From Sphingomonadales bacterium (lineage in GTDB: Bacteria > Pseudomonadota > Alphaproteobacteria > Sphingomonadales > Sphingomonadaceae), in the NCBI GenBank assembly GCA_025356275.1, contig JANXUK010000074.1:1-57381 (forward strand): 57,381 bases of DNA, written 5' to 3'. This document shows, piece after piece, positions 1 through 56,203 of the stretch; within the stretch, counting starts at the first letter, position 1, and each line of letters starts with the position of its first letter. The notes below the pieces were generated by a model. The model was given only the letters and a program-made list of their open reading frames with translations, made no database searches and had not been told where the DNA came from. The position numbers and the translations under genes were made by a program.

Positions 1-215
1 GGCGAGACAGCCCGAAGGGCATATGTCTCGCCGCCGGGCAGGGTGTCGGCACTCGACCAAAAAACGGCTGAAGCCTTTCCCGACTGAAAGTCGGGGGTTT
101 GAAACCGAAGGCGGGACAATCAATCCACTAGAACGAAAAGCGCCTTTTCGCGCTTTTCGTCAAACAGACTCCCGCAGGTCTGTTGTGATCGGGCGCGATG
201 GGGTAGGCGCGGGAC
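1..215. other. Non-coding leader with stacked hairpins
   Basis: No gene is supported upstream of recJ. Four inverted repeats are visible: GGCGAGACA (1-9) with TGTCTCGCC (24-32), enclosing a second small hairpin; CCCGACT (79-85) with AGTCGGG (89-95); and ACGAAAAGCGC (133-143) with GCGCTTTTCGT (150-160). The fourth is a short AGAC/GTCT pair near 167-183. Between them, at about 117-131, lies one end of the CTAG-bounded repeat family found elsewhere in the window. The open frame starting at 23 overlaps these hairpins and looks like chance. Confidence 0.5.
117..131. repeat. Partial CTAG-bounded hairpin element (one end only)
   Basis: The sequence CAATCAATCCACTAG matches the right end of the element at 29277-29351. 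No matching left end (CTAGTGG) is seen upstream, so this is a truncated or decayed copy. It ends two bases before a separate 11-bp inverted repeat. Confidence 0.5.
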
Positions 216-20775: not shown

Positions 20776-20839
20776 CTAGTGGATTGATTTGCCTCTGCCC
20801 TTGCCGAACTGGATGCAAATGTCGGAAACGGACCACTAG
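20776..20839. repeat. CTAG-bounded hairpin element F (hybrid)
   Basis: This element starts CTAGTGGATTGATTT like the elements at 29277 and 32394. From GCCTCTGC onward it matches the element at 32487, ending GCAAATGTCGG-AAACG-GACCACTAG. The outer arms pair only as CTAGTGG/CC-ACTAG, so it looks like a recombinant of two subtypes. It lies between the 78-aa gene and the aldolase gene. The 20718-20887 gap holds no gene, but a further AGAGC/GCTCT hairpin sits at about 20751-20776. Confidence 0.8.
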
Positions 20840-29114: not shown

Positions 29115-29190
29115 CTAGTGACCCGAATCTGAATTTCGCCGCATGTATAATCCAGGTTGGAGCGAACTTCAGATTCAAGAGGGTCACTAG
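29115..29190. repeat. CTAG-bounded hairpin element A
   Basis: The ends are CTAGTGACCC and GGGTCACTAG (perfect 10-bp inverted repeat). Inner arms GAATCTGAA and TTCAGATTC pair after a 4-base bulge. The inner TTCGCC...GGTTGG...AGCGAA portion resembles element B (29204) in inverted orientation. It starts eight bases after tRNA-Pro. Confidence 0.85.
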
Positions 29191-29203
29191 CAACTATATG
29201 ATT

Positions 29204-29280
29204 CTAGTGTGGTTTCAGGATTTGAAATTCGCTCCGTACCCAACCGCTTGATGTGGCGAATTTCAAATCCACCACACTAG
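29204..29280. repeat. CTAG-bounded hairpin element B
   Basis: The ends are CTAGTGTGGT and ACCACACTAG. Inner arms GGATTTGAAATTCGC and GCGAATTTCAAATCC form a 15-bp perfect match. Its last CTAG (29277-29280) is also the first CTAG of element C. Confidence 0.9.
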
Positions 29281-29351
29281 TGGATTGATTTGGACATTCG
29301 AGTGCCGCTTGCGGCAAAGGGTGCTTTCGAATGTCAAAATCAATCCACTAG
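29277..29351. repeat. CTAG-bounded hairpin element C
   Basis: The ends CTAGTGGATTGATTT and AAATCAATCCACTAG are inverted, and inner arms GACATTCGA and TCGAATGTC continue the hairpin. A small CCGCTTGCGG palindrome sits in the middle. It is nearly identical to element D (32394), with two substitutions and a four-base length difference. It ends 31 bp before the asparaginase start. Confidence 0.9.
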
Positions 29352-32393: not shown

Positions 32394-32472
32394 CTAGTGG
32401 ATTGATTTTGACATTCGAGTCCCGCTTGCGGCAAAGGGTGCTTTCGAATGTCAAAATCATGAAATCCACTAG
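32394..32472. repeat. CTAG-bounded hairpin element D
   Basis: This element is nearly identical to element C: the same CTAGTGGATTGATTT left end, GACATTCGA core and TCGAATGTC arm. It differs by two substitutions and an extra TGAA before the right end ATCCACTAG. It is followed 14 bp later by element E. Confidence 0.9.
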
Positions 32473-32486
32473 AAACAATATAATAT

Positions 32487-32564
32487 CTAGTGGTTCTTAT
32501 GTTTTTGCGACATTTGCCTCTGCACTTGCCGAAAGGGATGCAAATGTCGGAAACGCACCACTAG
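32487..32564. repeat. CTAG-bounded hairpin element E
   Basis: The ends are CTAGTGGTTC and GCACCACTAG. Inner arms GCGACATTTGC and GCAAATGTCGG surround TGCACTTGCC. The inner part matches element F (20776). Its terminal CTAG supplies a TAG stop to the doubtful minus-strand frame at 32561-32767. Confidence 0.85.
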
Positions 32565-36915: not shown

Positions 36916-36938
36916 CTAGTGGTTCGTTTCTCCACTAG
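36916..36938. repeat. Minimal CTAG-bounded element H
   Basis: Only 23 bp remain: CTAGTGG, a 9-base spacer (TTCGTTTCT) and CCACTAG. The left end CTAGTGGTTC matches element E, so this looks like an internal deletion form. The last CTAG contains the TAG stop of the S24 regulator on the minus strand, so the element defines that protein's C-terminus. Confidence 0.75.
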
Positions 36939-37597
36939 AGCCGGCCGCATTTCCACGCCACCCGGCCAATGATCACCAATTCGGCGGGGGGCAGGTCGAG
37001 CTTGGGATAGGCGGCATTGTCGCTGATCAACGTGACCCGGTCGGGCCGCGTCAGGTCCAGGCGTTTGACAAGCAACGCGTCGCCCAGGCGGACAACATGG
37101 ACGCCGTTTTGCCAGATGCGCGGCGTGCGATCGACGAGGATTTCGTCGCCGTCATAAAGCGTGTTTTGCATCGAATCGCCGCTGACCGCGATTGCCGAGA
37201 GCATTGCGGCATTGAGGCCCTGCGCGCGCAGCCAGCTGGCCGCGAAACGGAATGCGCCGATGGCGGCCTCCCCCCCCGCAACCGCGCCCGGCCCTGCCGA
37301 GGCGTCAATGTTGAGGCGGGGGATATCCAGCCATTGCGCCACGCGGGATTTTGCCGCAGTGGGCAGGTATTTATCCTCTGACCCACCCAGCGCCGCCTCG
37401 CTGACGCCGAAAAAGCGGGCGAGGGTCTGGCGATCCCCTTCCTCCAGTTTTCGCGGGCTCCCCTTGCGGACAAATTGTTGAAGATACGTCGTATTTCTGC
37501 CAATCAATGCCGATAAGGACGACAGGCTTGCCCCGCGATCGCTGGCCAGCTGCATCAGGTAATGGCGGGGATCAGACGGCTCCATGCTTCGTTTCAT
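36935..37597 (-). CDS. HTH-S24 (LexA/CI-like) transcriptional regulator
   Basis: The 220-residue protein joins an N-terminal helix-turn-helix (about residues 20-65, SLSSLSALIGRNTTYLQQFVRKG) to a C-terminal S24 peptidase fold. The likely catalytic serine is in AVSGDSMQNTL and the lysine in DALLVKRLDL. A possible self-cleavage Ala-Gly occurs in DASAGPGA. Proteins of this type are repressors, some inactivated by RecA-dependent self-cleavage. Its stop codon is part of repeat element H. The divergent small genes at 37685 and 37863, across an 87-bp gap with a palindrome, are probable targets. Met5 is an alternative start. Confidence 0.88.
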   Translation of the reverse strand: MKRSMEPSDPRHYLMQLASDRGASLSSLSALIGRNTTYLQQFVRKGSPRKLEEGDRQTLARFFGVSEAALGGSEDKYLPTAAKSRVAQWLDIPRLNIDASAGPGAVAGGEAAIGAFRFAASWLRAQGLNAAMLSAIAVSGDSMQNTLYDGDEILVDRTPRIWQNGVHVVRLGDALLVKRLDLTRPDRVTLISDNAAYPKLDLPPAELVIIGRVAWKCGRL

Positions 37598-54579: not shown

Positions 54580-56097
54580 ATGAGCGCATTCGGGCGGAAA
54601 AGCGGACCAGCCGGATTTGGCCAGGCGGCCAAGCCGGCATTCGGTGTCGCTCGCCCGATGCAAGGCGGGGTTTCCGCTGCGCCCGGCGCGCGCGCGGGCG
54701 GCGATCAGTTTCCTCCGCTCCCCGGCGAGCCACAGGCCATTCGCGGCGGTGATGACGGCAAGAACGGCGACGCGCTGAGCCGGCTGGCCGAACGCTCCAA
54801 CGGCGTTGCCGAGGGGCCGGCCAAGCTTGAGGGCTTCGAGGCATCGGTCCACAAGATCAAGGAACAGGTGCTGCCGCGCCTGCTGGAACGCGTCGACCCC
54901 GAGGCCGCCGCCACACTGACCAAGGATGAGCTGGCAGAGGAATTCCGCCCCATTATCATGGAGGTGCTGGCCGAACTTAAGATCACGCTGAACCGCCGTG
55001 AGCAATTCGCGCTGGAAAAAGTGCTGATTGATGAGCTGCTCGGTTTTGGTCCGCTGGAGGAATTGCTCAACGATCCCGACGTCTCGGACATCATGGTCAA
55101 TGGCCCCGACCAGACCTATATCGAAAAAAAGGGCAAGCTTCAGCTTTCCACCATCCGCTTCCGCGACGAACAGCATCTGTTCCAGATCGCGCAGCGCATC
55201 GTCAATCAGGTCGGCCGCCGCGTCGATCAGACCACGCCGCTGGCCGACGCGCGGCTCAAGGACGGCAGCCGCGTCAACGTGATCGTGCCGCCGCTGTCGC
55301 TGCGCGGCACTGCGATCTCGATTCGCAAATTCTCCGAGAAGCCGATCACGCTGGATATGCTGCGCGATTTTGGCTCGATGTCGGACAAGATGTGCACCGC
55401 GCTGAAGATTGCGGGCGCCTGCCGGATGAATATCGTTATCTCGGGCGGCACCGGCTCGGGCAAGACCACGATGCTCAACGCCATGTCGAAGATGATCGAT
55501 CCGGGCGAGCGCGTGCTGACCATCGAGGATGCCGCCGAGCTTCGGCTGCAACAGCCGCACTGGCTACCGCTGGAAACGCGCCCACCCAACCTTGAGGGCC
55601 AGGGCGCGATCACCATCGGCGATCTGGTCAAGAACGCGCTGCGTATGCGGCCGGACCGGATCATCCTGGGCGAAATTCGCGGCGCCGAGTGCTTCGATCT
55701 GCTGGCGGCGATGAACACCGGCCATGACGGCTCGATGTGTACGCTCCACGCCAACAGCCCGCGCGAGTGCCTTGGCCGCATGGAAAACATGATCCTGATG
55801 GGCGACATCAAGATCCCCAAGGAGGCGATTTCGCGCCAGATCGCCGAATCGGTAGATCTGGTGGTTCAGGTCAAGCGGCTGCGCGATGGCTCGCGCCGCA
55901 CCACCAACATCACCGAGGTCATCGGCATGGAGGGCGATGTTATCGTCACCCAGGAGCTGTTCAAGTTCGAATACCTCGACGAGACCGATGACGGCACCAT
56001 CATCGGCGAATTCCGCCCGTCGGGTCTGCGCCCCTATACGCTCGAAAAGGCACGGCAATTTGGGTTCGACCAAGCCTATCTGGAAAGCTGCCTCTAA
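54580..56097 (+). CDS. cpaF: CpaF/TadA-type secretion ATPase
   Basis: This 505-residue PilT/VirB11-superfamily ATPase drives Tad (Flp) pilus assembly. After a low-complexity first 90 residues (Gly/Ala/Pro-rich) come the N-terminal domain with GFGPLEELLNDPDVSDIMVNGP, Walker A GGTGSGKTT, the Asp box, Walker B IILGEIRGAE, and the His box HDGSMCTLHANSP. The ATG at 54580 fits. No other tad/cpa gene is in the window on either side, so it looks isolated, though partners may lie elsewhere. Confidence 0.92.
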   Translation: MSAFGRKSGPAGFGQAAKPAFGVARPMQGGVSAAPGARAGGDQFPPLPGEPQAIRGGDDGKNGDALSRLAERSNGVAEGPAKLEGFEASVHKIKEQVLPRLLERVDPEAAATLTKDELAEEFRPIIMEVLAELKITLNRREQFALEKVLIDELLGFGPLEELLNDPDVSDIMVNGPDQTYIEKKGKLQLSTIRFRDEQHLFQIAQRIVNQVGRRVDQTTPLADARLKDGSRVNVIVPPLSLRGTAISIRKFSEKPITLDMLRDFGSMSDKMCTALKIAGACRMNIVISGGTGSGKTTMLNAMSKMIDPGERVLTIEDAAELRLQQPHWLPLETRPPNLEGQGAITIGDLVKNALRMRPDRIILGEIRGAECFDLLAAMNTGHDGSMCTLHANSPRECLGRMENMILMGDIKIPKEAISRQIAESVDLVVQVKRLRDGSRRTTNITEVIGMEGDVIVTQELFKFEYLDETDDGTIIGEFRPSGLRPYTLEKARQFGFDQAYLESCL

Positions 56098-56198
56098 AGC
56101 ATGATGTGATAAGATAGAATCGCATCATGCTCTAGAGTCTTTGTTTTCGCGTGATTTATCGACAAAAACCGGCACCCACTTTTTGTCATCACGCTCTA
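56098..56198. repeat. Composite alphaproteobacterial-type palindromic repeat
   Basis: Two palindromes lie in tandem. The first has arms AGCATGATG (56098-56106) and CATCATGCT (56123-56131). After a TCTAGAG linker, the second has arms GCGTGAT (56149-56155) and ATCACGC (56188-56194) around a core with TCGACAAAAACCGG and CCCACTTTTTGTC. The reverse complement of the second matches the repeat inside phoR (3274-3343). It begins right after the cpaF stop. Confidence 0.85.
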
Positions 56199-56203
56199 AG
56201 CCC

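Follow-up and report, generated by a model that had tools for sequence, protein, structure and literature searches.

The closest described relatives of the repeat examined here are found among insertion sequences, MITEs and REP-like palindromes. IS481-family members such as ISRe46 (TnRErm46) target CTAG, and the available part of PMC6794481 gives the ISRe46 direct repeat as NCTAGN. Prokaryotic MITEs (RUP, NEMIS, ERIC and others, named in the accessible sections of PMC3733652) are short, non-coding and high in copy number, with inverted ends and the target on both sides. The REP, BIME and REPIN repeats and the TIR families of Y1 genes consist of paired inverted hairpins with bulges and a tetranucleotide at the foot (excerpts of PMC3733652 and PMC8266576), and the former source, which also describes REP-like dimers, gives REP stems as 5–13 bp long, one end bearing GTAG or CGTC, in the sections available. 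Alphaproteobacteria also contain the palindromic repeats Bru-RS1 and Bru-RS2 (Brucella) and RIME (rhizobia), which we compared by published description; Bru-RS copies measure 103 and 106 bp in the available text of PMC10800456, and IS711 is said to prefer Bru-RS in that of PMC2266754. A description of the present family was not found among open-licence PMC papers, most subscription journals lying outside this scope.

The window, a 57,381-nucleotide stretch of DNA from a Sphingomonadales bacterium, contains copies of this repeat in several states of preservation. A complete double-hairpin element of 171 bp lies at 32394–32564 on the minus strand, with hairpins at 32394–32472 and 32487–32564 and a spacer at 32473–32486, as identified by fold and alignment. 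A diverged double-hairpin element occupies 29115–29280 on the plus strand. Its hairpin 1 (29115–29190, 76 bp) has CTAG feet and is identified by sequence, fold and alignment with 37 other dimers, and its hairpin 2 (29204–29280, 77 bp) by sequence, fold and alignment. The 13-nt spacer between them, CAACTATATGATT (29191–29203), matches many Rhizobiales elements in length and resembles them in sequence. A collapsed single hairpin of 75 bp, neither arm of which is bulged in the fold, follows on the minus strand at 29277–29351. The original prediction described three hairpins in a row, the last two sharing one CTAG. All three are present and the CTAG at 29277–29280 does lie in both neighbors, but the row is composed of one double hairpin and one collapsed single hairpin.

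Smaller remnants complete the set. A single-hairpin copy with an internal deletion folds at 20776–20839 (64 bp, minus strand). A 23-nt stump at 36916–36938, with no strand assigned, keeps both ends but has lost its interior and folds weakly (−8.3 kcal/mol). The last 13 nt of a further element stand at 119–131 on the minus strand, where an IS200/IS605-type insertion, the end of which forms the start of the window, interrupted the element at TTGAT. The eight CTAGTG...CACTAG hairpins first proposed are therefore six hairpins, this stump and this 13-nt remnant (listed as 117–131); the coordinates were otherwise correct when rechecked in the sequence. The tetranucleotide is as rare as had been supposed, with 37 CTAG in the window against 62.9 (s.d. 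7.5) in dinucleotide shuffles. An S24-peptidase (LexA-like) open reading frame at 36935–37597 terminates at the TAG within the right CTAG of this 23-nt remnant.

The full unit has the arrangement CTAG, hairpin 1, CTAG, a spacer of 12–14 nt, CTAG, hairpin 2, CTAG. Its length is 164–172 bp in 75 of 77 oriented dimers and 179 bp in the remaining two, all retrieved with a pattern permitting 150–185. The inner arms, which face the spacer, usually carry 3–5 extra nucleotides at a fixed place, and the outer arms do not. Among the 62 full matches, CTAG occupies the outer foot in 60 on one side and in 61 on the other; the search pattern fixed one of the two sides. In the source genome the spacer type tracks the partner hairpin, ATATTATATTGTTT occurring with one partner type and AAGATTTTGATT with another, and spacers elsewhere are mostly 13 nt of the type CAAnnnnATGATT. 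The collapsed form, of about 75 bp, consists of the left arm of hairpin 1 linked to the right arm of hairpin 2, and neither of these arms carries a bulge.

Comparison with the described systems reveals partial likeness to each. The element shares the CTAG target with IS481, and in most alphaproteobacterial IS481 ends examined here a CATTTG box is spaced from CTAG exactly as it is in the element. Unlike IS481, the element has no transposase gene, its ends are only partly alike, and it starts directly after CTAG rather than one base later. It has the general properties of the RUP, NEMIS and ERIC MITEs, but differs in its two covarying bulged hairpins with a spacer and in a length that is near-constant across several alphaproteobacterial orders. 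It shares the paired, bulged, inverted hairpins and foot tetranucleotide of the REP-like families, whereas its arms are 25 bp, CTAG stands on all four feet in most copies and there is no link to a Y1 gene.

We searched the source genome (3.18 Mb, 143 contigs) for further copies, as the original prediction had proposed. Copies are far in excess of chance. The pattern CTAGTGN{40,70}CACTAG gave 151 matches and its reversed form 43. With the 24-nt outer-arm pattern CTAGTGGNYYGNTTYYGACATTYG we identified 83 + 89 = 172 element ends, with 0 for the control. Sixty stretches around copies were fetched among the matches listed, fewer than all 172 ends. A profile built from 53 dimers and applied to these stretches and the window detected 50 full double hairpins; a further 6 matches were single or half hairpins and 10 were partial, 6 of the partial ones lying at contig edges. 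Among the full double hairpins the median nearest-neighbor identity is 96.7%, and it reaches at least 95% in 36 of 50. Thus many near-identical non-coding copies stand at unrelated sites, as in a MITE family. The element, a small repeat that is plentiful in some parts of a large bacterial class, coincides with assembly breaks; among the matches listed, at least 11 contigs begin no farther than about 240 nt from a copy.

A taxonomic scan with the exact pattern, in a collection holding one genome per species and so giving a lower bound, found at least 103 stretches, all labelled Proteobacteria or an alphaproteobacterial taxon and spanning several alphaproteobacterial orders. Carriers include Brucella (among them daejeonensis, tritici and cytisi), Phyllobacterium, Rhizobium, Agrobacterium, Methylocystis, Bradyrhizobium, Jiella, Hyphomonadaceae, Caulobacterales, Novosphingobium, Sphingobium, Sphingomonas and others, and 62 of the 103 loci listed show an end-to-end model match. 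Within the source genus the exact pattern is present in 22 of 195 genomes, hereafter the carriers, and absent from 173.

Evidence for insertion at CTAG came from a separate repeat in the source genome, ACAAAGACT-NNNN-AGCAnGATGCG. Of its 17 empty copies, 15 have an exact single CTAG, and at one locus (L090) the repeat contains a double hairpin, with the repeat on both sides and CTAG on each side. These copies show that CTAG is the target, as originally suggested, and at least five more element copies have the host repeat flanking one side. The host repeat is itself a second palindromic family with an internal CTAG, providing a landing site for the double hairpin; it occurs in the window at about 56093–56200 and at L090, L108, L110 and L111, 17 places being found by pattern. 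Pairs of elements sharing one CTAG were seen at 29277–29280 in the window and at two other loci (L061, L069).

Orthologous loci point in the same direction. At three places where the same-genus genome G097 carries the element, the related species G098 has the neighboring DNA but no element, and one of these places is also empty in G184. At the first of them about 30 nt of flank is missing from G098 too. Intergenic DNA at the empty places is diverged. Of six joined-flank queries, two aligned across the junction, the other four matching one flank or nothing. The predicted empty sites were therefore found at three loci, but the junctions in the relatives lack the single CTAG that they had been expected to hold. 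Three flank searches seeking empty sites for plasmid copies covered the query only in the originating record. Doubling of the target is thus seen in the host repeat, and absence of the element from an occupied site in the three orthologous places. G097 contains 13 further full-length dimers at 91–99% and 9 further single-hairpin matches at 96–100% identity to the query copies, and three of these single hairpins, examined in sequence, have unrelated flanks. We take these near-identical sets to reflect recent spread of both the double and the single form. The elements are very probably mobile, CTAG-directed and non-autonomous.

Next, we investigated constraint on the fold using 38 dimers, comprising 34 of 45 from other records (near-duplicates dropped), 2 from the source genome and both window dimers. 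Pairing is retained in 97.9% of 1,900 cells, a figure favored by the derivation of the structure string from one sequence. Two-sided changes occur in 24 of 50 pairs, in both hairpins, compared with 10.0 in shuffles, which related sequences may exceed without any structure, and at most 7 in slid controls. The choice of structure string and kinship leave the gap between the two-sided changes and the slid controls unexplained. One-sided changed cells number 11 against 140 two-sided, and G-U pairs are nearly absent. RNA helices normally tolerate G-U pairs, and from their scarcity here we infer that the constraint, or a copying process, acts on DNA rather than RNA.

IS481 uses CTAG, and for this reason the family was tried as a source of the mobilizing enzyme. 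We collected 23 IS481 loci from the source genus and from plasmids of Rhizobium, Cereibacter, Octadecabacter, Indioceanicola, Sphingomonas and Novosphingobium. In 18 of these, 33 ends of the type n-TGTTTRGTCCC were located without requiring CTAG; the preceding tetranucleotide is CTAG in 23, TTAG in 6 and something else in 4, so that IS481 ends and element feet share the same target. The other five loci lack this end, two of them (L291 and L345) showing a different type. The 15 two-ended copies have CTAG on both sides in 6 cases, CTAG and TTAG in 6, and CTAG and something else in 3. Compared in register, the element outer arms resemble the 33 ends with p = 0.00125 (left) and 0.026 (right) by column shuffles, values given without correction for having tried three enzyme families. 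An earlier comparison with 14 ends picked by eye yielded p = 0.0016 and 0.029, and register 0 scored highest among ten offsets; the three ends of the different type gave p = 0.16 and 0.41. The similarity is partial (11.2 and 8.8 expected matches over 21 columns), and the base between CTAG and TGTT is present in IS481 and absent in the element.

In carrier G002 (L306) an IS481 right end adjoins a single hairpin, with one TTAG between them. The source genome retains multi-copy IS481 as fragments only, mostly at contig ends; of the four right ends, three are at CTAG, with no difference among them across 132 nt. Carriers do not have an IS481 match above the cut-off more often (3 of 22) than non-carriers do (16 of 173). 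A search of the carriers for a transposase of the relevant clade, full or fragmentary, found it in 11 of 22, and gave no match in the other 11, including the one-contig genome G178. No copy bearing a gene between its two ends was recognized among the 103 loci listed, in which half matches were not each examined. At two loci (L303, 1453–2400; L294, 1441–2406) the stop codon of the IS481 transposase gene is the TAG within the target CTAG, and the same is described for ISRe46 in the available part of PMC6794481.

From these comparisons we consider it somewhat probable that the elements are MITE-like and are moved by an IS481-type transposase. The outer arms (CTAG-TGGnnnGATTYYGACATTYG) would then act as terminal inverted repeats, on which an IS481-family DDE transposase favoring the same CTAG target would act in trans. 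The extra 3–5 nt of the inner arms may prevent their use as ends, and neighbors sharing a CTAG would be produced by insertion of a new copy into the CTAG bordering an old one.

We weighed three other origins against an IS481-type driver. The paired inverted hairpins, with their conserved bulges and spacer, would suit REPIN- or BIME-like units that a Y1 tyrosine transposase (RAYT or TIRYT) mobilizes in folded single-stranded form, in which the inner CTAG would be a guide pairing with an outer CTAG target, and strong covariation with few G-U pairs is expected of folded DNA. However, Y1_Tnp (PF01797) is found in 9 of 22 carriers compared with 53 of 173 non-carriers, and was not found in 13 carriers, including G002, which has 45 element ends, and the one-contig G178. 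The element profile has no match beside 32 Y1 loci, some of them cut by contig ends, so a repeat-flanked RAYT or Y1 gene was not found there; the outer feet carry CTAG, not GTAG or CGTC at one end. Element orientation relative to GC skew is unbiased (37 of 65, p = 0.32, with low power), and single hairpins lacking both inner arms spread too. We rejected RAYT/Y1 as the driver on the failed correlation and flank tests and regard this origin as distinctly unlikely. Thus, of the MITE- or REP-like character originally proposed, the MITE-like half fits, while a REP/RAYT driver is unsupported, since 13 of the 22 carriers lack such genes.

MITEs of another DDE family targeting CTAG or YTAR, for example of the IS5/IS427 or IS701 types, are unlikely, though less so than a Y1 origin. 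IS5-type families can also use YTAR targets, as does IS711, and the reported preference of IS711 for the Brucella palindromes would fit such an origin (accessible portion of PMC2266754). The element sequence permits duplication of either TA or CTAG. Among the enzymes, PF13546, which we take to be linked to IS701, is present in 8 of 22 carriers and 47 of 173 others, and it has no match in the source genome or in G002; its absence from the source genome led us to reject it as the driver. It is highly improbable that the repeats are regulatory or terminator RNA hairpins retained for function, the alternative against which the original prediction was set. The hairpins are strong, and a flanking CTAG forms the stop of an open reading frame of at least 150 codons in 27 of 143 cases at the fetched loci, against 48 of 396 strand readings of control CTAGs, a slight excess (p = 0.049). 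Such a role is contradicted by the empty orthologous places. The absence of the exact pattern from most genomes of the source genus, the predominance of two-sided changes and the scarcity of G-U pairs also speak against it. Rfam returned no element match at the gathering score, the only hits in the window being tRNAs.

The IS481-type reading leaves one feature to be accommodated, in that terminal repeats by themselves do not account for covariation of the inner arms. The DNA-level covariation is explained by neither a plain MITE nor a plain REP model. It is possible, though rather unlikely, that the DNA hairpin fold itself, in addition to the terminal repeats, is a substrate of a CTAG-directed transposase, with four CTAG feet, inner arms whose bulges mark the inside, and compensatory changes from which G-T pairs are excluded. 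If so, the element would combine REPIN and MITE structure in one hybrid found widely among alphaproteobacteria and unnamed in the papers searched. The element lends itself to testing whether IS481-type transposases, instead of RAYTs, can spread short palindromic repeats in bacteria.

The element is rare on plasmids, with 20 records for a Rhizobiales-type query and 6 for a source-genome-type query, and a search of the phage collection with the former query found no copy. In IMG/VR the outer-arm pattern occurs on six contigs (L346–L351). A plasmid search also matched resistance plasmids with ISKpn27. In Rhizobiales a second subfamily (CTAGTGTCCCGAATCTGAAGTT / CTAGTGTGGTTTACGGATTTGA), resembling the window element at 29115–29280, adjoins the main type with a shared CTAG, at L147 6026–6187 and at L113 from about 7675.

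Finally, we examined the IS200/IS605-type element that truncates the copy at the start of the window. This element (tnpA, end TGTCCCGCC) sits at TTGAT in the outer arm of a CTAG element in three places of the source genome, namely window 1–131, L030 1–321 and L033 1–320. The 13-nt element stumps at the L030 and L033 Y1 loci are there because the insertion sequence cut into an element. The source-genome copies were considered as an autonomous relative because they end in ATCAATCCACTAG, and rejected, being insertions into the element at TTGAT. A further IS200/IS605-type copy, at L020, has no element stump. From the three TTGAT insertions it follows that CTAG elements serve as landing sites for IS200/IS605-type elements.
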